Below, piece by piece: positions 32,159 to 51,475 of a stretch of 64,000 nucleotides of DNA (position 1 is its first letter; each line of letters starts with the position of its first letter). The stretch spans positions 1,488,001 through 1,552,000 of the forward strand of contig NZ_CP058910.1 of assembly GCF_013415885.1 (NCBI RefSeq). The letters are read 5' to 3'. Both the position numbers and the translations under genes were made by a program. This DNA comes from Halosimplex rubrum. Its GTDB lineage: Archaea; Halobacteriota; Halobacteria; Halobacteriales; Haloarculaceae. Below the pieces are notes generated by a model that had not been told where the DNA came from, made no database searches, and worked only from the letters and a program-made list of their open reading frames with translations.

Positions 32159-34078
32159 ATGACAAACAAGAAGCAACCCCCTGACGGGGGACGAGAGGCA
32201 TCGCAATCCAACGGTTCGAGCGTGGACGAGGGGGGACCGTCCCGCCGCACCTTCCTGAAGGGGACGGCTGCGGCCGGCGCGGTCGCGCTCGGTGTCGGCG
32301 CCGGCGCCGTCGGATCGGTGTCAGCGGGGATCCCGACCCCTCAGCTGCATCGCGACGGAAATCTGATCAAGGACCCGGACGGCAACGTCGTGACGCTTCG
32401 AGGGGTCAACATCGCCGACCCCAAGCGGATCAACGTCACCGCCCCGGCCCGTGGGAAAGACGCCGTGCAGGTGATCGACATGCTCACCGACGCGAGCAAC
32501 GGCTGGTACCCGCGGATGATCCGCGTCCCGGTCCAGCCCGTCGACATCGGCGAGTACGAGCCCGGCTCGGGCCCGCCGGTTCCGGCGTTCACCGAGGGCC
32601 AGCTGGAGAGCTACCTCACGAACCACCTCGACGAGGTCGTCCAGCGCTGCGCCGAGCGGGGCGTCTACTGCATCATCGACTACCACCGCCACCGCGACGT
32701 GCAGTGGGCCGAGGGCCAGGACGGCCCGGTCAACGCCGAACTCCAGGACGAGGTCGACATGTTCTGGGATATCGTCGCGCCGCGGTACGCCGAGGACTCG
32801 CACGTCCTCTACGAGGTGTACAACGAACCGACCGAGCCCGGGATGTGGGAGGACCCCACTACCACGCAGTGGGTCGCCGACATCTGGGACCTCTGGCTGG
32901 AGATGGCCCAGCCGTGGGTCGACACCATCCGGAGCCACGCCGACAACATGATCCTGATGGGGTCGCCCTCCTGGACCCAGAGCCCCGAGGGCGCGCTCGT
33001 CGAGGAGTTCGACGGCGAGGACATCGCCTACACCTACCACATCTATCCGGGGCACAACTCCAGCAGACAACAGAACTGGGAGGACGCCTCGATCAACGGC
33101 GAGGGCGTCGAGGGCGTCTACGAGCAGGCGCCGCTGTTCGTCACCGAGTTCGGCTGGGAGGAGGGCGGCGGCCAGTACATCGGCGGGACCGACGAGTTCG
33201 GGACGGCCTTCCACGACTTCCTCGAGCAGAGCCCGGCCATCCACTGGACGGCGTGGTGCGCCGACCCCGTCTGGCGCCCGGTCATGTTCGAGCGCCCGTT
33301 CGCCGACAACGCCGACGACTCCGTCGGCGACCCGTACAACGGTACGGTCCCCGAAGCCTGCTCGGACCTGCCGTGTGAGTGGTCGCTGACCACCGGCAGC
33401 GGCGCCATGGGCGACGACATCAAGAGCTGGCTCGAACAGTACCGCAACGACGGTATCCCCGGCGAGGGCACCGTGACGCCGCCGACGGACACGCCCACCC
33501 CGACGGACGAGCCGAACACGCCGACCGACGAACCGGAGACGCCGACCGACGAGCCGGACACCCCGACGGACGAACCGGACACCCCGACCGACGAGCCGGA
33601 CACCCCGACCGACGAGCCGGACACCCCGACGGACACGCCGGCTGCGGACGCGATGGTCGTCGACAATTACGACGGCAGTCCCGGCTGGTCGTCCCATCGT
33701 AACGATCTGGGCGAGTGGTGCGGCGCCGGGTCGTTCGAGAACGGCGGCGGCGAAGAGATGGACGGCGCGCTCGTGCTGGAGTACGACAACGGCGGCTGGT
33801 TCCAGGAGCAGATCAACGAGGACGTGTCGGACTACTCGACGCTGGTCTTCGAGATCAGCGGCGCGGACGGCGGCGAGGAGTCCGAGGTGCTGTTCGACAT
33901 GGGCGGGGTGCGGACGCTGCTCGCCAACGTCACCGACGACACCATCGGCACCAGCATGGGGACGGTGCGCGTCGACCTGGCGGCGGCGGGCGTCGACCGC
34001 TCGTCGCCCTCGGTCCGATTCAACTTCTGGCAAGGGGGAGCCAGCACGCTCGAACTCTCCGAGATCCGACTCGAATAG
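32159..34078 (+). CDS. Secreted GH5 cellulase-like enzyme with shared C-terminal module
   Basis: A 639-residue protein. The Tat signal has Arg29-Arg30 in SRRTFLKGTAA. The GH5 catalytic domain (residues about 63-440) starts IPTPQLHRDGNLIKDPDG and has IDYHRHRD, the acid/base Glu223 in YNEPTEP and the nucleophile Glu330 in VTEFGWEEG. A linker of six TDEP-type repeats (about residues 442-494) leads to the shared 140-residue module (about 497-639). It should hydrolyse beta-1,4-glucan outside the cell. The start at ATG 32159 is set by GGAGGT four bases away. It is the first gene of the enzyme run; the next starts 31 bases on. Confidence 0.88.
   Translation: MTNKKQPPDGGREASQSNGSSVDEGGPSRRTFLKGTAAAGAVALGVGAGAVGSVSAGIPTPQLHRDGNLIKDPDGNVVTLRGVNIADPKRINVTAPARGKDAVQVIDMLTDASNGWYPRMIRVPVQPVDIGEYEPGSGPPVPAFTEGQLESYLTNHLDEVVQRCAERGVYCIIDYHRHRDVQWAEGQDGPVNAELQDEVDMFWDIVAPRYAEDSHVLYEVYNEPTEPGMWEDPTTTQWVADIWDLWLEMAQPWVDTIRSHADNMILMGSPSWTQSPEGALVEEFDGEDIAYTYHIYPGHNSSRQQNWEDASINGEGVEGVYEQAPLFVTEFGWEEGGGQYIGGTDEFGTAFHDFLEQSPAIHWTAWCADPVWRPVMFERPFADNADDSVGDPYNGTVPEACSDLPCEWSLTTGSGAMGDDIKSWLEQYRNDGIPGEGTVTPPTDTPTPTDEPNTPTDEPETPTDEPDTPTDEPDTPTDEPDTPTDEPDTPTDTPAADAMVVDNYDGSPGWSSHRNDLGEWCGAGSFENGGGEEMDGALVLEYDNGGWFQEQINEDVSDYSTLVFEISGADGGEESEVLFDMGGVRTLLANVTDDTIGTSMGTVRVDLAAAGVDRSSPSVRFNFWQGGASTLELSEIRLE
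33484..33640. repeat. Tandem repeat encoding the acidic TDEPxTP linker
   Basis: Imperfect 21-bp units encode Thr-Asp-Glu-Pro-Asp/Glu-Thr-Pro six times. Similar arrays occur in the other enzymes (about 35560-35700, 37505-37590, 42060-42190, 46360-46498, 47650-47780) and in the remnant at 49078. Unit number varies, as expected from slippage or unequal recombination. The acid residues keep the linker soluble in high salt. Confidence 0.85.
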
Positions 34079-34109
34079 CCCGATAACCGAACCCACACCT
34101 CACGACACA

Positions 34110-36128
34110 ATGAGCGACAACGGCACACACGACGGCGCACAGACATCGAACGACGACGTATCGACCTCCGACTCGACAGGGAGCTTCTCCCGCCGGAGCG
34201 TCCTGAAGGCGACGGGGGCGGCCGCGGTCACGGCCGGCTTCGCCGAGGCCCTGACGGGCTCGGTCGCTGCGGTCGGGATCGACACCCCGCAGCTGCACCG
34301 CGACGGTAACAAGATCAAAGACCCCAGCGACAACGAGGTCATCCTCCGCGGGGTCAACATCGCCGACCCCGCCCGGCTGGCCCGCAGCTGGCGCGGCAAG
34401 GACTCCATGGGCGTCTTCGAGAAGGCGACCAGCACCGACGAGTCCGACGAGGGCGGCTGGTACAGCCGGATCATCCGGCTCCCGACCCAGCCCCAGGACA
34501 TCTCCAGCGCGTCGAACGACCTCAAGATGGTCCACGGCGACGACTGGGGCCCGCTCCTGCCCGGGCAGTTCGACGAGAGCGACATGGAGACGTACTTCTC
34601 GACGTACGTCGACCCCATCATCGACGCCGCCGAGGAGCAGGGGCTGTACGTGATGATCGACTATCACCGACACTTCCCCATCTTCCACCAGCCCCAGCAC
34701 GAGGAGGACCTGGGTGACTACCAGTGTGGGAACGAGTCGTTCCCCAACGACATCGGCTTCTGTGGCGAACGCGGCGTCCTCTGGAACTCCGAGGAGCAGG
34801 CCTCCGAACTCGACGGCTACACCGAGGAGTACGCGGAGGAGCTCGACCAGGAGCTGCACGACTACTGGAACTTCGTCGCGCCCCGCTACAGCGACCGCTC
34901 GCACGTCATCTACGACGTCTACAACGAGCCGACCGGTCCCTACGCCGGCGACTGGGGCACGCCCAACCGCGAGCCCAACGCCGGCGAGGACGCCGGCCAG
35001 GACACCGACGTGATGGCCCAGGAGTCCAAGCGCTACTGGGACATGTGGGTCGACCGAGCCCAGCCGTGGATCGACACGGTCCGCGAGCACGCCGACAACC
35101 TCCTGACCATCGGGTCGCCCCGCTGGAGCCAGTACACCTACTGGGCGCCCCAGAACGAGTTCCAGGGCGAGGACATCTGTTACTCGGGCCACGTCTACAC
35201 CCACGACGGCCTCCGGCCGCTGTCGGACTACTACGGGACGCCCGCCCAGGAGGTCCCCGTGTTCTTCAGCGAGTTCGGCTGGGCCGAGGGTGGCGGCAAG
35301 GACAACTTCTCGTTCCTCGAGGGCACGGCCGACGAGTACGCCGACGACTTCGAGTCGTTCATCGACGAGTACCCGGTCCACCCGATCTGCTGGAACTTCG
35401 ACCACACCTGGGAGCCCGCCTTCTTCCAGCACGACTCCAGCCAGGACGGGACCTGGGAGATCCACGACTACCAGTCCCGCCCCGGCCAGTGGTGGCAGGA
35501 CTACCTCGAACAGCACCGCAACGACGACCTGCCCAACCCCGACGAGAGCGACACCGAGACGGCGACGGCCACGCCGACTTCGACGCCGACGGCGACGCCG
35601 ACCGACGAGCCGAACACGCCGACGCCGACCGACGAGCCGAACACGCCGACGCCGACGGACACCCCGACGCCGACGGACGCGCCCGAGACGCCCACGGAGG
35701 GGATGACCGTCGACAACTACGACGGCGACCCCGGGTGGGACAGCCACCGCAACGATCTGGGCCAGTGGTGTGGCGCCGGCTCCTTCCAGAACGGCGGCGG
35801 CGAGGAGTCCGCGGGCGAGCTAATCTTGGAGTACGACAACGGCGGCTGGTTCCAGGAGCAGATCAACCAGGACATCAGCGACTACGACACGCTCGTGTTC
35901 ACCATCCGCGGCGCGAACGGTGGCGAGGAGTCCGAGGTGCTGTTCGACATGGGCGGGGTGCGGACCATGCTCTCGAACGTCACCGACGACTCCATCGGCA
36001 CGGGCGTGAGCGAGGTGCGCGTCGACATGGCGTCGGCGGGCATCGACCGCTCGTCGCCGTCCATCCGCTTGAACTTCTGGCAGGGCGGCAGTAGCACGCT
36101 CAGGATCAGCGGCATCCACCTGGAGTAA
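34110..36128 (+). CDS. Secreted GH5 cellulase-like enzyme, second paralogue
   Basis: A 672-residue protein. The Tat signal has Arg28-Arg29 (SFSRRSVLKATG). The GH5 domain (residues about 53-480) opens with IDTPQLHRDGNKIKDPS, close to its upstream neighbour, and carries the acid/base Glu273 in YNEPTGP and the nucleophile Glu388 in SEFGWAEGG. A Cys-containing insert (YQCGNESFPNDIGFCGERG) is specific to this copy and may form a disulphide. A Thr/Pro/Glu linker (about 487-530) precedes the shared module (about 532-672). It probably arose from its neighbour by duplication and shares the transcript. Confidence 0.88.
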   Translation: MSDNGTHDGAQTSNDDVSTSDSTGSFSRRSVLKATGAAAVTAGFAEALTGSVAAVGIDTPQLHRDGNKIKDPSDNEVILRGVNIADPARLARSWRGKDSMGVFEKATSTDESDEGGWYSRIIRLPTQPQDISSASNDLKMVHGDDWGPLLPGQFDESDMETYFSTYVDPIIDAAEEQGLYVMIDYHRHFPIFHQPQHEEDLGDYQCGNESFPNDIGFCGERGVLWNSEEQASELDGYTEEYAEELDQELHDYWNFVAPRYSDRSHVIYDVYNEPTGPYAGDWGTPNREPNAGEDAGQDTDVMAQESKRYWDMWVDRAQPWIDTVREHADNLLTIGSPRWSQYTYWAPQNEFQGEDICYSGHVYTHDGLRPLSDYYGTPAQEVPVFFSEFGWAEGGGKDNFSFLEGTADEYADDFESFIDEYPVHPICWNFDHTWEPAFFQHDSSQDGTWEIHDYQSRPGQWWQDYLEQHRNDDLPNPDESDTETATATPTSTPTATPTDEPNTPTPTDEPNTPTPTDTPTPTDAPETPTEGMTVDNYDGDPGWDSHRNDLGQWCGAGSFQNGGGEESAGELILEYDNGGWFQEQINQDISDYDTLVFTIRGANGGEESEVLFDMGGVRTMLSNVTDDSIGTGVSEVRVDMASAGIDRSSPSIRLNFWQGGSSTLRISGIHLE

Positions 36129-36545
36129 TCCGACGACCGCGGCGGTCGTCGGCGCCCGGGTCGGCCCGGACGCCGGGGGGCGACCACCGAGCGTTCGACA
36201 CGCGGACGGACCATGACAGGGAACGAGCACGCCGACGGGGACGACGGGAGACCGCGCGACCGCGGTACCGGGGGTACTGCGCCGGTCGCGCGGGCCGCAC
36301 CGACCGGACTGACCGTCGACGCCACCACCGCCGTCACGGCCGCGCTCTCGTGGTCGACGACGGCGCCGGCGAGGACCGACCACTACAGCGTCTATGTCGA
36401 CGGCACCAGGCGGGCCGAAACCGACCGGGGACGGACCCGCGCTCGCCGCGGTCGGGCGACACCGACCAGGGCGACCGAGCGACCGAGGAGCACAGCTAAC
36501 GGACCGACCGACGACGGGGCACGGCCCCGCGGCACACACGGACAC
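36129..36545. other. Spacer between the second GH5 gene and GH12, with an FN3-like remnant
   Basis: This is the only long gap (417 bases) inside the enzyme run. It contains no intact gene. An in-frame decayed fibronectin-like segment lies from about 36213 and is listed separately. No TATA box as clear as the one at 32099 is seen, so the downstream genes may still depend on read-through. Confidence 0.5.
36213..36545 (+). pseudogene. Decayed fibronectin type III-like segment upstream of GH12
   Basis: The frame is open and continuous with GH12. It reads PTGLTVDATTAVTAALSWST, then DHYSVYVDGTRRAET, and degenerates into Arg/Thr noise. Compare LSHYTVYLDGERVQE and LDHYVVSLDGSEDRT in the FN3 domains of the gene at 38045. 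The N-terminal half of an FN3 domain is thus recognisable but its C-terminal half is lost. An alternative is a longer GH12 protein starting at 36213, but then the Tat signal would be buried at about residue 153. Confidence 0.55.
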
Positions 36546-38048
36546 ATGACACGAGACGACGACACGACCGAACCGAGCGACGAACGCGCGGCCCCGCAGT
36601 CGAGCGAGGCCGAACCGACCGCACGGGGCGACGACCGCGCGGCCGACACGCCCCCGGGCGCCGCGAGCAGACGCAGCGTCCTCAAGGCGGGTGCCGCCCT
36701 CGGCGCCGGCGGCCTCGCCGTCGGGCTGGGCGACCGGGTGTCGGCGGCGAAGGTCGAGGAGATCTGCGACTCCAGCGACTACGGCGCCATCGAGGTCGCC
36801 GACGGGTTCTCGCTGATCGACAACCAGTGGGGCAACTCGGCGGCCGAGCAGTGCATCTGGCTCGACGAAGACGGCAGCTACGGCTACGACTTCGACGCCT
36901 CGGGCACCGGCGGCGGGATCAACTACCCGCAGGTGCTCGTCGGCACCAAGCCCTGGGGGTCGGACACCGGCGTCGCCGACTTCCCGGTGCGTCGGCGGAA
37001 CGTCGACGAGCTGACGATCGACGTCGAGGCCGACTACAGCGAGTCCGGCGGCGAGTGGGACTGGGCCGAGGAGTGGTGGCTGCTGGAGGAGCCCGTCGGC
37101 GAGGAGCCCGAGACCCACCAGTACGAGATCATGCTGCTGCTGGACTGGAACGACCAGCACGACCACGGCGGCGTCGAGGCCACGGGTCTCTGGACCGACC
37201 AGTACGGCAACACCGTCGACCACTGGGTGACCTACGGCGGCGGTGGCGGGACCAACGCGGAGTTCTACATCTTCCGGATCCAGGGCGGCCACGACGGCGG
37301 GAAGATCGACCTGAAACCGATCGTCGACTACCTCACCGACGAACACGGCGTCAGCAAGGACCTGTGGCTCTCCGGCATCGAACTCGGCAACGAGTACTGG
37401 CCCGGCTCGACCGGACAGACGACCTACGAGACCTTCGACGTGACCGTCAACGGCACTACTTACGCCAGCGGCTCCGGCGAGTCCGCGGACAACGGCGGCG
37501 ACACCGACACACCCACCCCTACCCAGCCGCCGACCGATACGCCGACGGACACGCCGACCGACGAACCGGACACACCCACGGACGATCCCGGGGGCGGCGA
37601 CGGCGGGGCGCCCGCCGACGCCCTCGTCGTGAACGACTACGACGGCGACCCGTCGTGGTCGGCCAGTCAGAACGATCTGGGCGAGTGGTGCGGCGCCGGG
37701 TCGTTCGAGAACGGAAGCGGCGAGGTCGTCGACGGCGCGCTCGTCTTAGAGTACGACAACGGCGGCTGGTTCCAGACGCAGATCAACCGCGACGTGAGCG
37801 ACTACGACGATCTGGTTCTGGGAATCAGCGGCGCGAACGGCGGGGAAGAATCGGAGGTGCTGTTCGACATGGGCGGCGTGCGGACCGTGCTCGCCGATGT
37901 CACCGACGACTCCATCGGGACGACCGCGAGCGATGTGCGCGTTGACCTGGCGTCGGCGGGCGTCGACCGCTCGTCGCCGTCGCTGCGACTGAACTTCTGG
38001 CAGGGCGGCAGTAGCACGCTGACCATCGAGGAGGTGCGTCTGGAATGA
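36546..38048 (+). CDS. Secreted GH12 endoglucanase-like enzyme with shared C-terminal module
   Basis: A 500-residue protein. The Tat signal has Arg42-Arg43 (ASRRSVLKAG). The GH12 jelly-roll domain (residues about 65-310) shows the Asn-x-Trp-Gly pattern (IDNQWGNSAAEQCIW), GGINYPQVLVGTKPWG, the likely nucleophile Glu194 in YEIMLLLDW, and the acid/base in the ELGNEYW segment, probably Glu283. A Thr/Pro/Asp linker precedes the shared module (about 358-500). GH12 enzymes cleave beta-1,4-glucan and related glucans. The ATG at 36546 is preferred over 36213 because it places the Tat motif normally. The stop overlaps the next start (ATGA). Confidence 0.87.
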   Translation: MTRDDDTTEPSDERAAPQSSEAEPTARGDDRAADTPPGAASRRSVLKAGAALGAGGLAVGLGDRVSAAKVEEICDSSDYGAIEVADGFSLIDNQWGNSAAEQCIWLDEDGSYGYDFDASGTGGGINYPQVLVGTKPWGSDTGVADFPVRRRNVDELTIDVEADYSESGGEWDWAEEWWLLEEPVGEEPETHQYEIMLLLDWNDQHDHGGVEATGLWTDQYGNTVDHWVTYGGGGGTNAEFYIFRIQGGHDGGKIDLKPIVDYLTDEHGVSKDLWLSGIELGNEYWPGSTGQTTYETFDVTVNGTTYASGSGESADNGGDTDTPTPTQPPTDTPTDTPTDEPDTPTDDPGGGDGGAPADALVVNDYDGDPSWSASQNDLGEWCGAGSFENGSGEVVDGALVLEYDNGGWFQTQINRDVSDYDDLVLGISGANGGEESEVLFDMGGVRTVLADVTDDSIGTTASDVRVDLASAGVDRSSPSLRLNFWQGGSSTLTIEEVRLE

Positions 38049-41020
38049 CGGACGAGTCATCGCCCGCCGACGCCTTCGACGGGACCAGCGAGGACGCCCG
38101 CGACGGCACCGCGACGGCGACCAGGCGGACAGCGTTGAAGACGATCGGCGCGGCGGCGGCCGGCGGGACGCTCCTGTCCGGCCGCGCGAGCGCGGGCGTG
38201 CCGACGCCCCGGCTGCACACCGACGGCAAGTGGATCCGCGATCCGCAGGGCAACGCGGTGCAGCTGCGCGGGATGGCGACCGCCGACCCCGCGTTCTACC
38301 GGCGTACCCACCCCAAGTCCTTCGAGGAGGTACTGCGGTGGGCGACCGACACCGAGCGGGGCTGGCACCCCAACGTCGTCCGCCTGCCGTTCACCCAGGA
38401 CAACGTCGCCCACTACGGCATCGACACCCTGATCTCCGAGTTCATCCGCCCTGCGGTGGACATTCTGGCCTCCCGAGACGTGTACGCGCTGGTAGACTTC
38501 CACCTCATCCGGCCCTACACGCAGGAAGCCACGGAGACGTACAACTCGGAGAACGAGGACACGCTCGACCCCATCGACGACGTGATGCGGAACTTCTGGA
38601 ACGCGGTCGCGCCGGAGTTTGCCGACGACGAGCACGTCGTCTACGAGCTGTTCAACGAGCCGACCCAGCCGACGATGTACGGCGACGACGAGGGCGCCTG
38701 GCAGACCTGGCGCGACGCGGCCCAGCCGTGGGTCGACCTCGTGCGCGGGCACGCGCCCGAGACGCCGATCGTCATCGGCTCGCCGCGATGGACCTCGGTG
38801 ACCCACATGGCGCCGGAGTACCCCTTCGAGGGGGAGAACCTGATCTACGCGGCCCACATCTACCCCGACAACGGCGCGCCCTCGGAGTTCGACCAGTACT
38901 ACGGCGAGCCGGCCAACGACGTGCCGGTCGTCGTCACGGAGTTCGGCTGGGACCCCGACGGCGGGAGCGTCGACCAGGGGACCACCTCCGGCTGGGGGGA
39001 GCCGTTCCGCCAGTGGGCGGAGGGCTACGCCAACATGGGCTGGATCTCCTGGTGTTTCGACGACTCGTGGGCGCCGACCTTCTTCGACTCGCCGGGCGAG
39101 GGCGCTGCCGAGCCCTGGACGCTCAAGACCGGCGCCGACCAGATGGGCGGGTACATCAAGACCTGGCTCGACGAGACGCAGTCCGACAGCGTCCCGGCGA
39201 GTCCCATCGACGACTCGATAGCGCCGCCGGCGCCGGCGAATCCGACGGTCTCGAACGCCACCGAGATCAGCGTCGACCTCTCGTGGGACGCGGTCACCGA
39301 CGAGGGCGAGGCCGGTCTCTCGCACTACACCGTCTATCTCGACGGCGAGCGGGTCCAGGAGGCACTGCCCGGCGCCACTACGACGACGGTCGCCGGGCTC
39401 TCGCCGGGGACGACCTACGAGTTCGCCGTCACCGCCGAGGACGACGCCGGCAACGAGTCCGACCCGGCGACCGTGGTCGCCGAGACGATCGCCCGCGACG
39501 CGGGGCAGTCGCCCTACAACGGCCCGCACACGCTGCCCGGGCGCGTCCAGGCCGAGGACTTCGACGAGGGCGGCCAGGGGGTCAGCTACTACGACACCAC
39601 CGCCGCCAACCAGGGCGGCGCTTCCTACCGCGACACGGCCGTCGACATCGGCACGTCGGCGAACACCGGCTACAACGTCGGCTACATCTCGACCGGCGAG
39701 TGGCTGGAGTACACCGTCCAGGTCGAGTCGGCGGGGTCGCGCACGACGCGGGTGAACGTCTCGGCCGGGTCTGGCGGCGGCGGGGCGCTCCGTATCTCAG
39801 TCGACGGCGAGACGCTGGCGACCCAGGACGTGTGGCAGACCGGCGGCTGGTCGAACTGGCAGACGATCCGCGTCGGCGACCTGGACCTGCCCGAAGGCGA
39901 GCACGTCGTCCGGGTCACCGCCGAGTCGGGCGCCTGGAACTTCGACTGGATCGAGTTCGGCGAGTCCGAGGGGAGCGCTGATACGACCGCCCCGCCGGCG
40001 CCGACGAATCTCTCGGTGACCGGGACGACCAGCACCTCCATCTCGGTCGACTGGGACGCCGTCACCGACACCGGCGGGAGCGGCCTCGAGAGCTACGCAG
40101 TCCACGTCGACGGCAGCGAGGTCCAGACGGTCGCCGCGGGGACTACCTCGGCGACGGTCGACGGGCTGTCGGCGGAGACGAGCTACACGGTCGCCGTCTC
40201 GGCGGTCGACGGCGCCGGCAACGAGTCGGCGATGACGAGCGCCTCAGCCACGACCGACGCCGCGGGCGACTCCACCGCGCCGTCGGCGCCCGCGAACCTC
40301 TCGGTGACGGGAACGTCGAGTTCGTCGGTGTCGGTCGGCTGGGACGCCGTCACCGATTCCGGCGGGAGCGGGCTGGACCACTACGTCGTTTCCCTCGACG
40401 GAAGCGAGGACCGGACGGTCGCGGCGGGCACCACGGCAGTCACCGTCGACGGGCTGTCGGCCGATAGCTCCTACGAGGTCGGCGTCGCGGCGGTCGACGG
40501 CGCGGGCAACGCCTCGGCGGTGGCGACCGTGACGGCGACGACCGACGCCAGCGACGACGGCGGCGGGAGCGACGGCGAGACGCCCGCCGACGCGATGGTC
40601 GTCGACGACTACGACGGCGATCCGGGCTGGTCGAGCCACCGCAACGACCTGGGGCAGTGGTGTGGCGCCGGGTCGTTCGCCAACGGCGGCGGCGAGGTCG
40701 AAGACGGCGCGCTCGTCCTCGAATACGACAACGGCGGCTGGTTCCAGGAGCAGATCAACGAGGACGTGTCGGGCTACTCGACGCTGGTGTTCGAGATCAG
40801 CGGTGCCTCGGGCGGCGAGGAGTCCGAGGTGCTGTTCGACATGGGCGGGGTGCGGACGATGCTCGCCAACGTCACCGACGACTCGATCGGCACGAGCACG
40901 AGCGACGTACGCGTCGACATGGAATCGGCGGGCGTCGACCGCTCGTCGCCCTCGGTGCGCTTGAACTTCTGGCAGGGCGGGGCCAGCACGCTCACGATCG
41001 AGGAGATACGGCTCGAATAG
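38045..41020 (+). CDS. Large secreted GH5 enzyme with FN3, CBM6 and shared module
   Basis: A 991-residue multidomain protein. The Tat signal has Arg27-Arg28 (TATRRTALKTIG). The GH5 domain (about 50-385) has the acid/base Glu205 in FNEPTQP and the nucleophile Glu299 in VTEFGWDPDGG. Then come FN3-1 (about 396-483), a CBM6-like domain (about 493-640; RVQAEDFDEGGQGVSYYDTT and STGEWLEYTV), FN3-2 (about 647-737), FN3-3 (about 743-833) and the shared module (about 847-991). FN3-2 and FN3-3 are nearly identical, a recent duplication. It likely binds and cleaves insoluble beta-glucan or hemicellulose. It has no TDEP linker; the FN3 domains do that job. Confidence 0.88.
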   Translation: MTDESSPADAFDGTSEDARDGTATATRRTALKTIGAAAAGGTLLSGRASAGVPTPRLHTDGKWIRDPQGNAVQLRGMATADPAFYRRTHPKSFEEVLRWATDTERGWHPNVVRLPFTQDNVAHYGIDTLISEFIRPAVDILASRDVYALVDFHLIRPYTQEATETYNSENEDTLDPIDDVMRNFWNAVAPEFADDEHVVYELFNEPTQPTMYGDDEGAWQTWRDAAQPWVDLVRGHAPETPIVIGSPRWTSVTHMAPEYPFEGENLIYAAHIYPDNGAPSEFDQYYGEPANDVPVVVTEFGWDPDGGSVDQGTTSGWGEPFRQWAEGYANMGWISWCFDDSWAPTFFDSPGEGAAEPWTLKTGADQMGGYIKTWLDETQSDSVPASPIDDSIAPPAPANPTVSNATEISVDLSWDAVTDEGEAGLSHYTVYLDGERVQEALPGATTTTVAGLSPGTTYEFAVTAEDDAGNESDPATVVAETIARDAGQSPYNGPHTLPGRVQAEDFDEGGQGVSYYDTTAANQGGASYRDTAVDIGTSANTGYNVGYISTGEWLEYTVQVESAGSRTTRVNVSAGSGGGGALRISVDGETLATQDVWQTGGWSNWQTIRVGDLDLPEGEHVVRVTAESGAWNFDWIEFGESEGSADTTAPPAPTNLSVTGTTSTSISVDWDAVTDTGGSGLESYAVHVDGSEVQTVAAGTTSATVDGLSAETSYTVAVSAVDGAGNESAMTSASATTDAAGDSTAPSAPANLSVTGTSSSSVSVGWDAVTDSGGSGLDHYVVSLDGSEDRTVAAGTTAVTVDGLSADSSYEVGVAAVDGAGNASAVATVTATTDASDDGGGSDGETPADAMVVDDYDGDPGWSSHRNDLGQWCGAGSFANGGGEVEDGALVLEYDNGGWFQEQINEDVSGYSTLVFEISGASGGEESEVLFDMGGVRTMLANVTDDSIGTSTSDVRVDMESAGVDRSSPSVRLNFWQGGASTLTIEEIRLE

Positions 41021-41099
41021 CGATGCGACGGACTCATCTCGGCTCTCGACCGCTCTCGCTTCGACGCGACGGCGGCCACAGGAGGGACTCCCGGAACAG

Positions 41100-42635
41100 A
41101 TGACAGCAAACGACCCGACACACGACACGGAGGAGTCACAGAACCGACCCGATCAGGCGCCGGCTCGAACGGCGGCCGACGACCAGCGCGCCGACCGATC
41201 GAGCGCGCTCTCCCGACGCGGCGTCCTGAAGACCGGTGCGGCGCTCGGCACGGGCGCACTCGCGGTCGGTCTGGGGGCGCAGGCGTCGGCGACCACGCCG
41301 ACGGACCCGTCGAACCTCGACCTGTATCTCCTGTTCGGCCAATCGAACATGGAGGGCCAGGGGACGATCGAACCGCAGGACCGGGAGACGAACGACCGGA
41401 TTCACGTCCTCGCGGACCTGGACTGTCCGAACCTCGAACGCGAGTACGGCGAGTGGTACCGCGCCGAACCCCCGCTCAACCGATGCTACGGGAACCTGGG
41501 TCCGGGGGATTACTTCGCGAAGACCATGATCGACGAGGTGCCCGAGGACAGGGGTATCGGCCTCGTCCCGGCGGCCGTCAGCGGAGCCGACATCAAGCTC
41601 TTCCAGAAGGGCGCGCCTATCGGACGAAACGGTCGCGACATCCCCTCGCAGTTCGACGGCGCCTACCAGTGGATGAGAGACCTCGCCGAGACGGCCCAGG
41701 AAGCCGGGACGTTCAAGGGCATCCTGTTCCACCAGGGCGAGACCGACACGGCAGACCAGCAGTGGACGGGCGACGTCCAGGGCATCGTCCAGAACCTCCG
41801 TTCCGACCTGGGGATCGGGACGGTCCCGTTCCTGGCCGGAGAGATGCTCTACGACTCCCAGGGCGGGTGCTGTGGTGCGCACAACTCCGAAGTCAACGAA
41901 CTCCCCGACGTGATCGCGAACGCCCACGTCGTTTCGGCCCAGGGGCTCGAAGGCCAGGACAACGCTCACTTCACCGCCGAAGCCTACCGGGAACTCGGCC
42001 GGCGCTACGCCGAGGAGATGCTCCGGCACGTCGACCCCGGCGGTGGTCCCGCGACCGGCACCCCCACGCCGACGGACGAACCGGAGACACCCACACCGAC
42101 CGACGAGCCCGAAACGCCCACATCGACGGACGAACCGGAGACGCCCACGTCCACCGACGAACCCGAGACGCCCACGCCGACGGACACGCCGGCGGCGGAC
42201 GCGATGGTCGTCGACGACTACGACGGCGATCCGGGCTGGTCGAGCCACCGCAACGACCTGGGGCAGTGGTGTGGCGCCGGGTCGTTCGCCAACGGGGGCG
42301 GCGAGGTCGTCGACGGCGCGCTGGTGCTGGAGTACGACAACGGCGGCTGGTTCCAGACGCAGATCAACCAGTCCGTCGAGGAGTACTCGACGCTGGTGTT
42401 CGAGGTCAGCGGCGCGGACGGCGGCGAGGAGTCCGAGGTGCTGTTCGACATGGGCGGGGTGCGGACGCTGCTCTCGAACGTCACCGACGACTCCGTCGGG
42501 ACGAGCACGTCGGAGGTGCGCGTCGACCTGGCGTCGGCGGGCATCGACCGCTCTGTGGGGGATCTCTCGGTGCGGCTCAACTTCTGGCAGGGCGGTAGCA
42601 GCGTCCTCGCGATCGGGGAGATACGGCTCGAATAG
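41100..42635 (+). CDS. Secreted CE6/SASA-type acetylesterase with shared module
   Basis: A 511-residue protein. The Tat signal has Arg39-Arg40 (LSRRGVLKTG). The SGNH-type esterase domain (about 70-320) has LLFGQSNMEGQG, with nucleophile Ser82, and the late Asp287-x-x-His290 in DNAHFTAEAY. A central FKGILFHQGETD block is typical of carbohydrate esterase family 6 and sialate acetylesterase-like proteins. It would remove acetyl groups from xylan or another polymer and so assist the GH10 enzyme. A TDEPET linker precedes the shared module (about 367-511). Confidence 0.87.
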   Translation: MTANDPTHDTEESQNRPDQAPARTAADDQRADRSSALSRRGVLKTGAALGTGALAVGLGAQASATTPTDPSNLDLYLLFGQSNMEGQGTIEPQDRETNDRIHVLADLDCPNLEREYGEWYRAEPPLNRCYGNLGPGDYFAKTMIDEVPEDRGIGLVPAAVSGADIKLFQKGAPIGRNGRDIPSQFDGAYQWMRDLAETAQEAGTFKGILFHQGETDTADQQWTGDVQGIVQNLRSDLGIGTVPFLAGEMLYDSQGGCCGAHNSEVNELPDVIANAHVVSAQGLEGQDNAHFTAEAYRELGRRYAEEMLRHVDPGGGPATGTPTPTDEPETPTPTDEPETPTSTDEPETPTSTDEPETPTPTDTPAADAMVVDDYDGDPGWSSHRNDLGQWCGAGSFANGGGEVVDGALVLEYDNGGWFQTQINQSVEEYSTLVFEVSGADGGEESEVLFDMGGVRTLLSNVTDDSVGTSTSEVRVDLASAGIDRSVGDLSVRLNFWQGGSSVLAIGEIRLE

Positions 42636-42669
42636 CGCGCGAACCGGACCAAAGGCACACACGGAACCC

Positions 42670-45300
42670 ATGACGAACGACGACACACACGAGACGGGAG
42701 AGACGGAGCGAACAGACACGGCGGCCACCGACGCGTCGGCCGACGGCGACGAGGTCGCGGCGGCGCTGGCGTCGATGGACCGCCGGGACTACCTGAAGGC
42801 GTCGCTGGCCGCTGCGGCGATGGCCGGCCTCGGCGGTGCGGCGAGCGGGACTGCGGCCGCCGAGACGGCCGACACCTCGAAGACGGTGGACGAGCGCATC
42901 CAGGAACACCGGGCGGGCGACCTCGAAGTGGTCGTCGAGAACCCCGACGGCTCGGCGGTCTCGGGCGCGGAGGTCTCGGTCTCCCAGCAGGAACACGCGT
43001 TCGGCTTCGGGACGGCGGTCAACGCCGACACGCTGATCAACCAGTCCGGCGAGGGCGACAACTATCGCCAGTACATCCCGGAGCTGTTCAACAAGGCGGT
43101 GATGGAGAACCGCCACAAGTGGGACTTCTTCGAGAACGAGCGGGCGCTGGCCGACGAGGCGACCGACTGGATCCTCGACCAGGGGCTGGACATGCGCGGG
43201 CACGTCTGCCTGTGGGGCCGCGAGGACGTGGCGGCCATCCCCGCTGACGTCAACACGGCCATCGACGACAACGACGCCGAGACGATCCGCGACCGCTCGA
43301 TGGCCCACATCGAGGAGATAATCACCCACTACGGCGACGACTTCACCGAGTGGGAGGTCGTCAACGAGGCGATGCACGCCTATCAGATGCAGATCGGCGT
43401 CTACGGCGACCAGATCGACACGGAAGAGCCCTGGACCGGCGAGGTCGTCCCGTGGACCTCCCAGCTTTTGGCCGACTGGTACGACGAGGCCGAGTCGGTC
43501 ATCGACGAGAACGACCTCGACCTCGGGATCGCGGTCAACGACTTCAACCAGTTCCCCTACGCCTACACCGACAGCCGCTACGAGTCCGAGATCGACCACA
43601 TCAACAGCAACGCCGTCCAGCTCGACACCGTCGGGCTCCAGGCCCACGTCGCCGCTCGCACCGGCGAGTTCAACAGCAACTCCAGCCCGGACGGCCGCAT
43701 CGACGCCGGCCAGGTCGCCGCGGAGATGAACAAGTGGGCCGACCACGGCGCGCGCCTGAAGATCACGGAGTTCGACACGTACAACGGCAGCGACTGGAAC
43801 TCCGACGAGGAGCGCGCCCAGATGCTGGAGAACTACTTGCGGGGCGCCTTTTCCCACCCCGGCTGCGACGACTTCATCATGTGGGGGTTCTGGGACGGCC
43901 GCCACTGGGAGAACGAGGCCCCCCTGTTCTATCAGGACTGGTCGCAGAAGCCGGCCTACGACGTGTGGACCGGGCTGGTGTACGACGAGTGGTGGACCGA
44001 CGACAGCGGGACGACCGACGGCTCGGGCGCCTACGCGACGACGGCGTTCCTCGGCGACCACGAGGTCACCGTCAGCACCGACAGCGCGGAGACGACGGAG
44101 ACGGTCTCGGTGTCCGAGGCCTCGGGCACGACGACGGTCACCGTCACCGTCGAGGGCGACGGCGGCGAGACGGGGGACACCCAGCCGCCGTCGGTGCCGG
44201 AGACCCTCTCGGTGTCGTCGACGACCGACTCGACGGTCACCGTCACCTGGGACGGCGTCTCCGACAACGGCTCGTCGGGGCTCTCGGCGTACGTCGTCTG
44301 GGTCGACGGGACCGAGGACCAGACGGTCGGTGCGGGCATGACGACGGCGACCGTCGAGGGGCTCTCGCCGGAGACGAGCTACACGGTCGGCGTCACGGCG
44401 GTCGACGGTGCGGGCAACGAGTCTGACGCCGCGACGGTCTCGGCGACGACCGCGGCGAGCGACGACGGCGACGACGGCGACGATGGCACCGACCAGCCGG
44501 CCGGCGACGCGCTGGTCGTCCACGAGTTCGACGGGAACGCGTATCCCGGCTCGAACGACCTGGGCAACTGGGCCGACGGGGGGAGCTTCGCCAACGGCGG
44601 CGGAAGCGGCGAGGTCGCCGACGGCGCGCTCCGCCTGGAGTACGACAACGCCGGCTGGATGGGCTCGAACGTCGCCCGGTCGATCGCCGACCGACCGACG
44701 CTACATCTCCGCGTCCGCGGCGACTCGGGCGGCGAGGAGAGCGACTTCACCGTCCAGGTCGGCGGCGCGAGCGACGTGCTCGCGACCGTCACCGACGACA
44801 CCATCGGTACCGAGTGGTCGACGGTCACCGTCGACCTCGAGGCGATGGGCGCCGACCTGGACAACCCCCAGTCCGTTCGCCTGAACTTCTGGCAGGGCGC
44901 CTCCGGTGCCGTCGAGATCGACCGCATCGCCCTCCGCGGCCCCGACGCCGGTTCCGGTGACGGCTCGGACGGCTCGGACGGCTCGGACGGCTCGGATGGA
45001 TCGGACGGTTCGGACGGCTCCGATGGCGACTCGGGCAGTAGCGGCGACCTGATCGCGGAGATCGACCCGAGCGCGACCGCGGCGTCGGTCGGCGAGCGGG
45101 TCACCTTCCGCGTCACGGACACCACCGACTCGGGCCACTGGATCGACTCGCTGTCTTGGAGTCTGGGCAACGGCGAGTCGGCCAGCGGCTGGTACGCCGA
45201 GACGACCTACGACGCGGCGGGCACCTACGCGGTCGAACTGACCGCGACGAACGACGAGGGCGCCTCGACCACCGACACGGTCGAGATCACGATCGCCTGA
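42670..45300 (+). CDS. Secreted GH10 xylanase-like enzyme with FN3, divergent shared module and PKD domain
   Basis: An 876-residue protein. The Tat signal has Arg38-Arg39 (MDRRDYLKAS). A small N-terminal beta domain (about 80-115; EVVVENPDGSAVSGAEVSVS) leads to the GH10 barrel (about 115-440), with RGHVCLWG, the acid/base Glu233 in WEVVNEAMHA and the nucleophile Glu367 in ITEFDTYN. Then follow FN3 (about 504-594), the second subtype of the shared module (about 612-757), a Gly-Ser-Asp repeat linker (about 760-792) and a PKD-like domain to the end. It should cleave beta-1,4-xylan. It is the only protein here in which the module is internal. Confidence 0.87.
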   Translation: MTNDDTHETGETERTDTAATDASADGDEVAAALASMDRRDYLKASLAAAAMAGLGGAASGTAAAETADTSKTVDERIQEHRAGDLEVVVENPDGSAVSGAEVSVSQQEHAFGFGTAVNADTLINQSGEGDNYRQYIPELFNKAVMENRHKWDFFENERALADEATDWILDQGLDMRGHVCLWGREDVAAIPADVNTAIDDNDAETIRDRSMAHIEEIITHYGDDFTEWEVVNEAMHAYQMQIGVYGDQIDTEEPWTGEVVPWTSQLLADWYDEAESVIDENDLDLGIAVNDFNQFPYAYTDSRYESEIDHINSNAVQLDTVGLQAHVAARTGEFNSNSSPDGRIDAGQVAAEMNKWADHGARLKITEFDTYNGSDWNSDEERAQMLENYLRGAFSHPGCDDFIMWGFWDGRHWENEAPLFYQDWSQKPAYDVWTGLVYDEWWTDDSGTTDGSGAYATTAFLGDHEVTVSTDSAETTETVSVSEASGTTTVTVTVEGDGGETGDTQPPSVPETLSVSSTTDSTVTVTWDGVSDNGSSGLSAYVVWVDGTEDQTVGAGMTTATVEGLSPETSYTVGVTAVDGAGNESDAATVSATTAASDDGDDGDDGTDQPAGDALVVHEFDGNAYPGSNDLGNWADGGSFANGGGSGEVADGALRLEYDNAGWMGSNVARSIADRPTLHLRVRGDSGGEESDFTVQVGGASDVLATVTDDTIGTEWSTVTVDLEAMGADLDNPQSVRLNFWQGASGAVEIDRIALRGPDAGSGDGSDGSDGSDGSDGSDGSDGSDGDSGSSGDLIAEIDPSATAASVGERVTFRVTDTTDSGHWIDSLSWSLGNGESASGWYAETTYDAAGTYAVELTATNDEGASTTDTVEITIA
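44955..45045. repeat. Simple repeat encoding a Gly-Ser-Asp linker
   Basis: Nine-base units (GGCTCGGAC and variants) encode seven or more Gly-Ser-Asp triplets between the module and the PKD domain of the GH10 protein. A slippage-prone acidic linker, different in sequence from the TDEP linkers around it. Confidence 0.85.
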
Positions 45301-45328
45301 CGACCGCGACACGATACGACAGAGACCC

Positions 45329-46933
45329 ATGCACTCCGACGACTCACCACGACAGGCACAGGACGACGAACAGCGACGCGATCGGGCGGACGACGCCGCG
45401 ACCGGCGGGACCCAGCGACGGACGGTCCTGCGGGCGCTCGGGGGCGGCGTGGCCCTCGGCGCGGTCGGCACGCTCGGCGCGGAAGTGTCGACGGCGACCG
45501 GCGCCGACCTCGGCGACGGCGTGAACCTCATGCCGCCGTACTACTGTAGCGGCGACCAGGACCTGGGCTGGGACCTGATGGACGAGTATCCGGACATCGA
45601 GACGGTCCGCATCGAGATCGAGCCCCCGTCGATGGGCGAGAGCCAGTCCACGATGGACGACGCCAAGCGGTGGATCGACGAGGCCCACGAGCACGGGTAC
45701 GACGTTCTGGCGACGTACCACCACCATCCGCACAACGGCTCGGCCGACCCGGCCCACCTCCAGAACGCGGCCGACTGGTGGGTCGAACACTACGACTACC
45801 TCTCGCAGGACGCCGAGTTCACGATCAACATGATGAACGAGTGGGGCAACCACCAGGTGACCGCCGACGAGTACGCCTCGGCGTACGACGAGGCGCTCTC
45901 GACCGTCCGCGACGGGACGAGCTACTCGGGACCCATCGTCTGTGACGCGCCGGGGTGGGGCCAGGGGACCTATCGGCTCGCCGACGCCGTCGAGTCGATC
46001 GGCGACGACGACCTGATCCTCTCGGCGCACGTCTACCCCGTCGGCTGGAACGCGACGACGGGCGAGTACCTCGCCGCCGAGGACCTGGACGTCCTGGAGG
46101 AGACGGACTACCCCTGCATGGTCGGGGAGTTCGGCAGTATGCCCCAGAACAGCGACGGCGACGCCGACTGGTCGGCCATCATCGACCACGCCAACGAGCT
46201 GGGCTGGCCGGTCGTCGGCTGGTCCTGGAACGGCGACGGCGGCGGCATGAACATGGCCGACCCCTACTGGGGCGACGACTGTTCGGCCGACAGCTACTCG
46301 ACGAGCGACTACTTCCCGGTCGTCTACGACAAGCTCGGCGACGGCAGGACGACGACGGACACGCCCACCGCCACCCCGACGGACGAACCGGACACGCCGA
46401 CCGACGAGCCGGAGACGCCGACCGACGAGCCGGAGACGCCGACCGACGAGCCGGAGACGCCGACCGACGAGCCGGACACGCCGACGGACACGCCGGCGAG
46501 CGACGCGCTGGTCGTCGACGACTACGACGGCGACCCCGGCTGGGCGTCCCATCGGAACGATCTCGGGCAGTGGTGCGGCGCCGGTTCCTTCGAGAACGGC
46601 GGCGGCGAGGAGACCGGCGGCGCGCTCGTCTTAGAGTACGACAACGGCGGCTGGTTCCAGACGCAGATCAACCGGTCGGTGAGCGACTACGACGACCTGG
46701 TGATCCGCGTCAGCGGCGCGAACGGCGGCGAGGAGTCGGAGGTGCTGTTCGACATGGGCGGGGTGCGGACCATGCTCGCCGACGTCACCGACGACTCGAT
46801 CGGCACGAGCGCGAGCGAGGTGCGCGTCGACATGGAAGCGGCGGGCGTCGACCGCTCGTCGCCGTCGGTGCGCTTGAACTTCTGGCAGGGCGGCAGTAGC
46901 ACGCTCGAGATCGGAGGGATACGGCTGGAGTAG
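45329..46933 (+). CDS. Secreted GH5 mannanase-like enzyme with shared module
   Basis: A 534-residue protein. The Tat signal has Arg30-Arg31 (TQRRTVLRALGG). A compact GH5 barrel (about 55-340) has the acid/base Glu171 in NMMNEWG and the nucleophile Glu267 in MVGEFGSM. Tryptophan-rich WSWNGDGGGMNM follows, a pattern I associate with GH5 subfamily 8 beta-mannanases. This GH5 is distinct from the three cellulase-like copies. A five-unit TDEPET linker (about 346-390) and the shared module (about 392-534) complete it. It is the last gene of the tight run; a promoter-like region follows. Confidence 0.85.
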   Translation: MHSDDSPRQAQDDEQRRDRADDAATGGTQRRTVLRALGGGVALGAVGTLGAEVSTATGADLGDGVNLMPPYYCSGDQDLGWDLMDEYPDIETVRIEIEPPSMGESQSTMDDAKRWIDEAHEHGYDVLATYHHHPHNGSADPAHLQNAADWWVEHYDYLSQDAEFTINMMNEWGNHQVTADEYASAYDEALSTVRDGTSYSGPIVCDAPGWGQGTYRLADAVESIGDDDLILSAHVYPVGWNATTGEYLAAEDLDVLEETDYPCMVGEFGSMPQNSDGDADWSAIIDHANELGWPVVGWSWNGDGGGMNMADPYWGDDCSADSYSTSDYFPVVYDKLGDGRTTTDTPTATPTDEPDTPTDEPETPTDEPETPTDEPETPTDEPDTPTDTPASDALVVDDYDGDPGWASHRNDLGQWCGAGSFENGGGEETGGALVLEYDNGGWFQTQINRSVSDYDDLVIRVSGANGGEESEVLFDMGGVRTMLADVTDDSIGTSASEVRVDMEAAGVDRSSPSVRLNFWQGGSSTLEIGGIRLE

Positions 46934-47084
46934 GCGCTTCGCCCCCACGCTCACGTTCCCTGGGTTTCCACGCCCCGATCGACGCGTTTCGGACCGCGCC
47001 GCGCAGCGCGGTTCGCCCGCTGTCGGGTCCGCCGGGACCCGAAGAGATTAGCGTTTCGCAAAAATTATTTTTCTATTCGTTAAC

Positions 47085-47090
47085 TTTAAC
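47085..47090 (+). promoter_or_regulatory. Separate promoter of the secreted unknown-domain protein
   Basis: TTTAAC in a strongly A/T-rich island (about 47058-47095) lies about 30 bases before the ATG at 47118. The last protein of the island can therefore be transcribed on its own. Confidence 0.5.
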
Positions 47091-47117
47091 AGCTATCGGT
47101 CGTATGTGTACTCTGCA

Positions 47118-48977
47118 ATGGTAGATAGACGAACCGTACTGAAGGGGGGGGGCATCGCATTCGGAAGCCTGGGCCTGGTGTCGACGGTGCTGGGCCAGGA
47201 GTCCGCGCTGGTCGTCCACGAGTTCGACGGGGGGACGTATCCCGGGTCGAACGACCTGGGCAACTGGGCCGGCGCGGGGAGTTTCGCCAACGGCGACGGG
47301 AGCGGCGAGGTCGCCGACGGCGCGTTGCGGCTGGCGTACGACAACGCCGGCTGGTTCGCGAGCAACGTCGGCCAGTCGGTCGCCGACCACGGTCACCTGA
47401 CGATGCGAGTCCGGGGGGACTCGGGCGGCGAGGAGAGCGACTTCCTGGTCGATATCGGGGGCGCCAGGGGGCTACTGTCGAATCTCACCGACGACACCAT
47501 CGGCACGGAGTGGTCGACCGTCTCGGTCGACCTCTCGGCGGCCGGCGCCGACCCGGAGAACCCGAAGGCCGTTCGGTTCAACTTCTGGCAGGGCGCCTCC
47601 GGCGCGGTCGAGATCGACCGCATCGCGTTCACGAGCGACGGCGAGGCGCCGCCGTCGACCGCGACGGCGACGCCGACACCCGACCCGTCGACACCGACGG
47701 ACGCGCCCGACGACGAGACGCCGACGGACACACCCACCGACGAACCCGACGACGAGACGCCGACGGACGCGCCCGACGACGGCGGGAGCACCTGGGACGT
47801 GCCGTTCCCCGAGCGGCCGCCCGAACCGGACTCGCTGCCGGCGGCCTCGGCGATCACCGAGAGCACGACGGTCGCGGAGCTGTGCGAACACTTCGACGAC
47901 CCCTACTACGTGCCGCGGGACTTCACGGACTACCTGCCGGGCGAGACGGGCTCGAAGCTCCAGGAGTGGACCGACTCCGAGAAGGCCGAGGAGTTCGATT
48001 ACGACGTGAGCGCCGTCGAGGAGAGCGCCGGCGACGGCTCGCTGACGCTCGGCCAGCTCGGTACGCAGGCGCTGCCGTACGTGAAACAGTTGGCCGAGCA
48101 CGACTTCCCGGCCCACGCGACGGTGAAGCTACTGCCGCGGCTGGCGCTGCTGCCCGACGAGGAGGAGGACCCCGGCGTCCACGACGAGCCCTCGACGGTC
48201 TGGTCGGAGACCGCGGGACCGACCGCGGCCACCAACGACCCCGACCAGCTGATCCAGGACCGCTGGCCGACGGACGCGCGGACCTACCAGCCGATGGAGG
48301 TCCGCGTGCGCGACCGCGCTCACGACCAGCCCCAGTACGACGACAGCCGCGAGTGGGCGAGCTCCGGGAGCATCTCTGACTCCTTCTACAACGACGAGAC
48401 GAACCCGGTACTCGACGCCGCCGCCGAGAAGGTCCACCCGGCGACGGGCGAGTCGCTCGGCGGCGACGGCTTCACCGCCAACGCGCCCATGGAGGCGGAG
48501 ATCCGGATCCACGAGACCGGCGGGGGCTACCTCAACCAGTACATCAAGCTGAAAAACACCAGCGAGGTGCCGTACTTCCAGGACGCCGCGGTCATCTGGT
48601 GGCTCGGCCCCTCGGGGAACGCCTCGAACCTCTCGGACGGCCACTGGAACAACCCCCACCGGCCGAGCGCGTCGCTGGGCCACCCCCAGCGCGACGTGAT
48701 CGAGGTGAACCACCCCGACTACACCGATCTGTCGGTGTACGCCGTTCGCCTGGCCAACCACGACGAACCGTACCACATGCGGACGATCTACCCCGGCCAG
48801 AGCGTCGCCATGGAGATCGGCACGCCCCGCGACGGCAGCGCGTGGTCGAGCAGCGCCGAACGGCAGGATATGGTCGACACGATGCTCGACTCGCTGCACG
48901 TCGAACTGGAGACGGACCTGAACCGCAACGACCCGATCGTCGACGCCATCGACCTGACGTACCGCGTGCCGAACTGA
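47118..48977 (+). CDS. Secreted protein with N-terminal shared module and large unknown domain
   Basis: A 619-residue protein. The Tat signal has Arg4-Arg5 (VDRRTVLKGGG). Unlike the others it carries the module at the N-terminus (about 28-176), of the same subtype as in the GH10 protein (VVHEFDG, then GSNDLGNWAG). An acidic TDEP/DDETPT linker (about 180-228) leads to a region of about 390 residues that matches no family I know. That region has a beta-rich block (EAEIRIHETGGGYLNQYIKLKNTSEVPYF) and many Trp, Asn and His residues near DAAVIWWLGPSGN. It may be a new enzyme or adhesin on the polysaccharide. Confidence 0.85.
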   Translation: MVDRRTVLKGGGIAFGSLGLVSTVLGQESALVVHEFDGGTYPGSNDLGNWAGAGSFANGDGSGEVADGALRLAYDNAGWFASNVGQSVADHGHLTMRVRGDSGGEESDFLVDIGGARGLLSNLTDDTIGTEWSTVSVDLSAAGADPENPKAVRFNFWQGASGAVEIDRIAFTSDGEAPPSTATATPTPDPSTPTDAPDDETPTDTPTDEPDDETPTDAPDDGGSTWDVPFPERPPEPDSLPAASAITESTTVAELCEHFDDPYYVPRDFTDYLPGETGSKLQEWTDSEKAEEFDYDVSAVEESAGDGSLTLGQLGTQALPYVKQLAEHDFPAHATVKLLPRLALLPDEEEDPGVHDEPSTVWSETAGPTAATNDPDQLIQDRWPTDARTYQPMEVRVRDRAHDQPQYDDSREWASSGSISDSFYNDETNPVLDAAAEKVHPATGESLGGDGFTANAPMEAEIRIHETGGGYLNQYIKLKNTSEVPYFQDAAVIWWLGPSGNASNLSDGHWNNPHRPSASLGHPQRDVIEVNHPDYTDLSVYAVRLANHDEPYHMRTIYPGQSVAMEIGTPRDGSAWSSSAERQDMVDTMLDSLHVELETDLNRNDPIVDAIDLTYRVPN

Positions 48978-49077
48978 CCGCGGTCGCTCTCGAACCGACC
49001 GCGGCGGTTCCCGAACCGACCGAAACCGTTCCCTGTCGCCGTCCCCGCCCGCGACCGCGGCGTCGCGGCCCCCGACC

Positions 49078-49341
49078 GTGACGCCGACCGCCACGCCTGC
49101 GGACACCCCGACGCCCAGCGGCCCCACGTCGACGCCGACACCGACAGACGCGCCGAGTACGTCCTATGAACAGATCGACCGCGACGTGAGCGACGACTCG
49201 ACCGGCGCCTCCTTCTCGGAGGTCGCCGTCGACACGGAGTCGCCGAGCGTCGACCGGACCTCGTCGACCCTCTCGCTACGATTGAACTTCTGGCAGGGCG
49301 GGGCCAGCACGCTCCGAGTCGACGGCGTCCGCCTGGCGTAG
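49078..49341 (+). pseudogene. Remnant of a linker plus shared module
   Basis: The 87-codon frame holds a Thr/Pro linker (TPTDAPSTSYEQIDRDVS). It jumps directly to the end of the module: SEVAVDTESPSVDRTSS, then SLRLNFWQGGASTL and VRLA. The N-terminal part (the WCGAGSFENGGG and YDNGGW region) and the middle (EVLFDMGGVR) are missing, and no signal or catalytic domain is left. It is what remains of a ninth member of the family after deletion. Confidence 0.75.
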
Positions 49342-51270: not shown

Positions 51271-51475
51271 GTTCCCGGGCCGCCCGGATGACCGCTCTGG
51301 ACGGTCGACCGCACGGGACACCGATCGCCCGTTCGCGATCGCCGGAGCCCGGACTCGATGAGCGGAATCGTCGTTTCCCAGGCCCGAACGGCCGAACGAG
51401 CTGGCCGAAAATATTGTGAAGAAATTTTTCCACCAGAAATTATTTCAAGGGGTGGCGCACAGTAGGGCACGGATC

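Follow-up and report, generated by a model that had tools for sequence, protein, structure and literature searches.

How secreted haloarchaeal cellulases stay on insoluble cellulose in saturated brine is little understood, and haloarchaeal polysaccharide hydrolysis in general is almost unknown (PMC10267330). The window analysed in the present work, a stretch of 64,000 nucleotides from Halosimplex rubrum (1488001-1552000 of the genome contig), contains a haloarchaeal cellulose-utilisation island of eight consecutive genes on the same (+) strand (positions 32159-48977), in each of which a domain of some 145 residues is encoded once. The question raised by this locus is what a domain shared by all the proteins of such an island does for them. 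The island genes encode TAT-type secreted proteins, which are named below by the start positions of their genes, and the island is flanked by a TrmB-family sugar-responsive regulator (30693..31760, +) and by an SBP_bac_5 solute-binding protein of an ABC transporter (51416..53641, +) that may serve in the uptake of cello-oligosaccharides.

Six copies of the module, which constitute subtype A, are C-terminal and run up to the stop codon without a membrane anchor behind them, while the other two (subtype B) are internal or N-terminal. All of them lie on the + strand, and their partners have been identified using Pfam. Subtype A ends four GH5 proteins, viz. 32159-34078 (module at 33641..34075), 34110-36128 (35691..36125), 38045-41020, which has the architecture GH5-FN3-CBM6-FN3-FN3 (40583..41017), and the mannanase-like protein 45329-46933 (46496..46930); it also ends the GH12 protein 36213-38048 (37611..38045) and the CE6-like esterase 41100-42635 (42192..42632), which matches SASA, the Pfam family covering CE6. 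Subtype B is found inside a GH10-FN3-module-PKD protein at about 42670-45300 (44497..44934) and at the N-terminus of the 47118-48977 protein (47196..47636), where it precedes a domain referred to here as X. The modules are joined to the enzymes mostly via flexible T/P/D/E-rich linkers, and in the 38045 protein a CBM_6/CBM_35_2 match at residues 531-639 represents a domain separate from the module. The first-pass annotation of this DNA had described one domain that ends six enzymes (three GH5 cellulase-like, GH12, CE6 and GH5 mannanase-like) and a second subtype that is internal in the GH10 protein and N-terminal in the 47118 protein; the domain is present at all of these places and Pfam agrees with the enzyme families named. 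The sequence motifs that it quoted recur in every copy, with a single exception: the 34110 protein has T in place of the first V of V-V-x-x-[YF]-D-G.

The alignment of the eight copies contains 49 invariant columns and has a mean column identity of 75%. When one copy was used as a query against its own genome (4.48 Mb, one contig), the other seven were recovered at E values of 3.5e-80 to 1.9e-35, and beyond the eight modules nothing convincing was found in this genome except a truncated ninth copy (49180..49341, +); chance similarity of the eight modules is thus excluded. The truncated copy consists of a T/P linker followed by only the last C-terminal strands of the module and lies just past the 47118 gene. 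It is probably the remnant of a deleted gene, and it probably also set the end coordinate, 49341, of the first-pass annotation. Another broken copy was observed in genome G274 (C1:1316723-1316938), and in the assembly of Halosimplex carlsbadense modules are split over two frames (L042:2-3055/L042:2727-2951 and L050:2-1366/L050:1176-1400), due to either assembly error or frameshift.

Comparisons of the module with known families by sequence gave no family at its curated cut-off in Pfam or NCBIfam, and nothing plausible among PDB sequences when profiles of 8 and 59 module rows were used; the 59-sequence profile recovered no CBM (carbohydrate-binding module) chain from PDB at E<=10, including those of DdCBM8 (7t7y), CBM29-1 and CBM29-2. 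The 59 members when scanned singly produced sub-threshold hits only, the plausible ones all belonging to one fold superfamily, with best E values of 0.0047 for CBM11, 0.034 for a mannanase galactose-binding domain, 0.1 for CIA30 and 0.13 for CBM30. Hits to CBM11 (PF03425, cut-off 27 bits) were seen in 4 of the 59 members, the 41100 protein scoring 14.8 bits (E 0.03), and neither CBM11 nor CBM30 (PF21582, cut-off 27 bits) reached its cut-off over the module in the window or in 59 related genomes. CBM_6/CBM_35_2 was not matched by any of 59 isolated modules. We regard as noise a DUF2125 hit in the 47118 protein, whose 20.4 bits fall short of the 24.2 required, as well as the CBM60 hits of seven members, and PDB profile matches to 7y9n (a spike S2/5HB-H2 construct), Rab12 and a tape-measure protein had low scores and were biologically implausible.

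The AlphaFold2 model of the 38045 copy (pLDDT 96.6, pTM 0.90) is nearly all beta and is predicted to form a beta-jelly-roll. Its neighbours, found with Foldseek and VIA-align, superpose on it over 121-131 residues at 2.2-2.7 Å with 12-20% identity. The predicted model thus has an independent fold of known CBM type (CBM8, 30, 11 and 29 at Z 11-14), and the module is, as is required of a CBM, a contiguous non-catalytic domain within carbohydrate-active enzymes, being fused to GH5, GH10, GH12, SASA/CE6 and PL14. Proteins of the same fold that do not bind sugars are also matched (CIA30/NDUFAF1 at Z 11.4, reelin at Z 10.7), and therefore the fold alone is no proof of sugar binding. The HMM and structure-prediction checks that the first-pass annotation had proposed, with no Pfam, NCBIfam or PDB sequence match at cut-off and a model nearest to CBM8, CBM30, CBM11 and CBM29, uphold as a candidate its suggestion of a new CBM family. 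Its remark that the CBM family is not assignable by eye holds at the level of sequence, although its superfamily, that of the galactose-binding-like jelly rolls, is identifiable. We have found no named CBM family for the module in the literature, where CAZy numbering had extended up to CBM112 by May 2026 (PMC13357471) and where a 2024 paper labels proteins of a homologous Natronoglomus cluster as 'galactose-binding-like domain' (PMC10963439). The module is accordingly a candidate for a family of its own by sequence within its fold class, as judged against Pfam, NCBIfam and PDB; its fold and mode of action are already known in kind, and it is the sequence family that is nameless in Pfam and NCBIfam.

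The conservation of individual residues in 93 homologues points to where a ligand could be bound (residue numbers are those of the 38045 copy). W26 (96% W), Y48 (99% Y), W53 (94% W) and W130 (92% W) are highly conserved, N21, G52, G77, G78, E79, T104 and G117 are almost invariant, and W16 is W in 76% of the homologues and otherwise mostly Y in distant members. Near W130, the polar residues R126, N128 and Q131 are conserved in the main group and variable in the distant members and in the copy from Nonomuraea described below. Strand alternation and conservation within the stretch 124-130 suggest that V125, L127 and F129 point inward and that R126, N128 and W130 share one exposed face. Conserved aromatics combined with variable polar residues form the pattern that would be expected of an aromatic platform with lineage-specific hydrogen-bonding residues. 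Ligand contacts in DdCBM8 are made by W572, W574, Y600 and Q686, a set matching the aromatic platform of CBM29-2 (PMC9079177), and the conserved aromatics W26, Y48, W53 and W130 of the module can be set beside these four, the residue correspondence being putative. The tight conservation of W26, Y48 and W130 could be partly structural.

The first-pass annotation had treated the module as a feature of the eight island proteins, and it is indeed common to all eight, but it is also widespread in cellulolytic haloarchaea. Strong matches (E below 1e-9) are present in 19 of 391 Halobacteria genomes, often in 5-11 copies each, and matches at E<=0.01 in 25 of the 391, several of these being marginal fragments. 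The named bearers are Halosimplex, Halocatena, Actinarchaeum, Natronoglomus, Halovivax and unclassified Halobacteriales, together with a genome (G002) taken as that of Halococcoides cellulosivorans HArcel1, for which growth on cellulose has been demonstrated (PMC10267330). Across the bearers, the linker-attached partners of the module are almost exclusively carbohydrate-active enzymes, and in genome G344 it accompanies PL14, FN3 and a dockerin-like tail. A phylum-wide scan of archaea beyond the class yielded two marginal fragments and nothing more, and a search for viral relatives found none. The sole bacterial homologue in the plasmid collection searched is from the actinobacterium Nonomuraea gerenzanensis (39% identity over 97% of the module, E 1e-16), where the module lies on the C-terminal side of an FN3 domain and the protein also matches DUF4832. 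The window copies are acidic (D+E 15-19%, K+R 4-6%) and the Nonomuraea copy is not (D+E 7%, K+R 5%), which is the difference to be expected if a single fold has adapted to salt.

The relationships among the copies suggest that modules may have moved between partners. The six copies of subtype A share 72-86% mutual identity and the two of subtype B 74%, with 45-54% between the subtypes, whereas in their catalytic domains the three GH5 cellulase-like proteins are only 29-37% identical to one another. Identical DNA tracts are shared by the modules of 38045 and 41100 (98 nt), 32159 and 41100 (68 nt), and 36213 and 45329 (57 nt). Among the 63 modules placed in a tree, those of a single species often cluster despite having different catalytic partners (viz. 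H. salinum GH5a/GH5b; H. aquaticum GH5a/b/c; the H. aquaticum GH10 and X copies; YIM A00010), these within-species clusters having moderate support (SH-aLRT about 80-95), while the GH12, GH5 mannanase-like and GH5b copies track their catalytic partner across species. Hence, the identical tracts of up to 98 nt and the species-wise clustering suggest gene conversion or module exchange, and the history of the module, as far as it can be read from these sequences, appears to be one of vertical descent mixed with such events.

We consider it probable that the module is a galactose-binding-like beta-jelly-roll CBM on secreted enzymes, with a beta-1,4-linked plant polysaccharide as its ligand, an aromatic binding site and a role in fibre targeting, and that it represents its own family by sequence. 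From the shared domain, the diversity of its partners and the distribution observed, and from the predicted fold, we infer the ligand, the binding face and the targeting role. The ligand would most likely be cellulose or amorphous glucan, possibly glucomannan, contacted by the candidate exposed aromatics W16, W26, W53 and W130 of the 38045 copy, with R126, N128 and Q131 as polar helpers that vary between subfamilies. Each enzyme would thus carry its own fibre-binding module, by which endoglucanases, xylanase, mannanase-like enzyme and esterase may be held to a common plant fibre. Since GH5 and GH12 partners are in the majority and proven cellulose users are among the bearers (PMC10267330), the ligand shared by the modules is most probably cellulose or a related beta-1,4-glucan; alternatively, they may bind xylan or mannan, or subtypes A and B may differ in ligand.

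Other explanations of the module differ in its family membership or in its function. It might belong to an already established CAZy family with this fold (CBM8, CBM11, CBM29, CBM30, or one that has no Pfam model or structure), having diverged and gone unrecognised, a reading that we regard as unlikely, though by no means negligible. Such membership would account for the closest folds being those of CBM8 (Z 14.4), CBM30 (Z 13.3), CBM11 and CBM29 (both Z 11.6) and for the scattered sub-threshold CBM11 and CBM30 HMM hits, but these two families stay below their cut-offs in the window, in 59 module relatives and in 59 related genomes, the 59-sequence profile brings up no PDB CBM at E<=10, and the aligned identity is 12-20%. 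It is improbable that the module has no affinity for sugars and instead has a structural role, stabilises the proteins or mediates protein-protein interactions, in the manner of CIA30: the match to CIA30/NDUFAF1 (Z 11.4) and one weak CIA30 HMM hit speak for such a role, but the module is almost always linker-joined to carbohydrate-active enzymes and its aromatics are conserved on putative surface strands.

The first-pass annotation had also entertained binding to the cell surface, in which case the module would be a cell-surface or S-layer retention domain holding the enzymes on the archaeal cell. A domain that is common to every enzyme of one island and stands last in 6 of 8 proteins is anchor-like; however, the module also occurs in N-terminal and internal positions, it is found in the actinobacterium Nonomuraea, whose envelope differs, its predicted fold lies among CBMs, and some module proteins have a dockerin-like tail, which is a separate attachment device. 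These observations disfavour surface retention relative to substrate binding, and we consider it very improbable.

The X domain, which is the partner of the subtype B module in the 47118 protein (395 aa; 47790..48974, +), belongs to a conserved haloarchaeal family with no match in Pfam or PDB. Of 382 haloarchaeal genomes, at least 39 have homologues of it, the most distant at 38% identity, and these share the invariant H/D-rich motifs GHPQRD, HD-x-PY-x-MRT and HVE; structure prediction from four near-identical sequences reached a pLDDT of 35. The X domain and the module consistently go together, either fused in one protein or as a pair.

Archaea were already known to have dockerin and cohesin domains, and some bearers of the module among more distant haloarchaea carry it in association with them. 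A gene pair is kept in genomes G062, G077, G104, G105, G264, G321, G344 and G002, in which a small protein consisting of the module and an EF-hand dockerin-like region is encoded beside a module-X gene homologous to the 47118 gene; such stand-alone module-dockerin proteins, each adjoining a module-X gene, are located at L084:8281-8997, L083:7474-8562, L102:14019-14786, L101:6521-7297 and L097:6425-7435. Their dockerin-like tail is above the Pfam Dockerin_1 cut-off in G077 and G321 and below it in others, and at the G077 and G321 loci examined the adjacent GH5 and GH9 enzymes have Dockerin_1 matches, some just under cut-off. The Halococcoides genome G002 has 67 Dockerin_1 matches and two adjacent cohesin genes, one for a secreted protein with cohesin and dockerin (L096:3220-4728) and one for a cohesin with a C-terminal hydrophobic segment (L096:4737-5363); this pair looks like the scaffold plus anchor of a cellulosome-like system. 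In other bearers, proteins with a single cohesin end in hydrophobic, PGF-like anchors, and the genome of the window has no Dockerin_1 or Cohesin match. Two published studies took the dockerins as substrate-binding and left cohesins unmentioned (PMC10963439; PMC13260240), and a third mentions neither domain (PMC10267330).

Tentatively, and with considerable doubt, we suggest that the module is a shared targeting part of haloarchaeal cellulase systems of two forms. In one, it is fused to each enzyme (Halosimplex-like, with no detectable dockerin or cohesin); in the other (Halococcoides and members of another family, f3, that includes Natronoglomus), a small module-dockerin protein also bears it, next to enzymes that have dockerins, and membrane-anchored cohesins lie elsewhere in the genome; this would be an archaeal cellulosome-like arrangement with the CBM as a plug-in subunit. 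The dockerin-borne arrangement is a lead rather than a finding, and the distribution of the fused and dockerin-borne forms opens cellulosome-like assembly in archaea to direct test. If the module binds, it is likely to provide a new CAZy family and a salt-stable cellulose-binding tag, and annotation could flag targeting domains in many haloarchaeal GH5, GH10 and GH12 enzymes now read as being without them.

One of the closest known systems is the mannan/glucan cluster of Natronoglomus mannanivorans, which holds members of the module family (L058; L102 of genome G344) and in which 'Gal-db/Dock1' genes have been drawn, the gene-to-ORF correspondence being presumptive (PMC10963439); the annotation there is at the superfamily level only, without a proposed CBM family (PMC10963439). 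The best structural match of the module is CBM8 from a Dictyostelium GH9 endoglucanase (DdCBM8, 7t7y; 131 residues at 2.2 Å), with 12% aligned identity, this being a match of the predicted model with putative residue equivalence. DdCBM8 binds insoluble cellulose and soluble glucomannan via three aromatics and a Gln (PMC9079177). CBM30 of Cel9D-Cel44B from C. thermocellum (2c24/1wmx), which is also attached to a cellulase, has the best Foldseek E-value (128 residues at 2.4 Å, 20% aligned identity) and differs in that its Pfam cut-off is missed by the module. CBM11 of Lic26A-Cel5E (1v0a/6r31) has 14% aligned identity with the module, which falls below its Pfam threshold of 27 bits, and CBM29 of Piromyces (1gwk/1w8u), which aligns over 121 residues at 12-13% identity and was not hit by sequence, uses an aromatic platform to bind mannan and cellulose oligomers (PMC9079177). 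The work describing DdCBM8 recognises CBM11, CBM30 and CBM29 as structural neighbours of CBM8 (PMC9079177), and the haloarchaeal module, by its predicted fold, thus joins that group.
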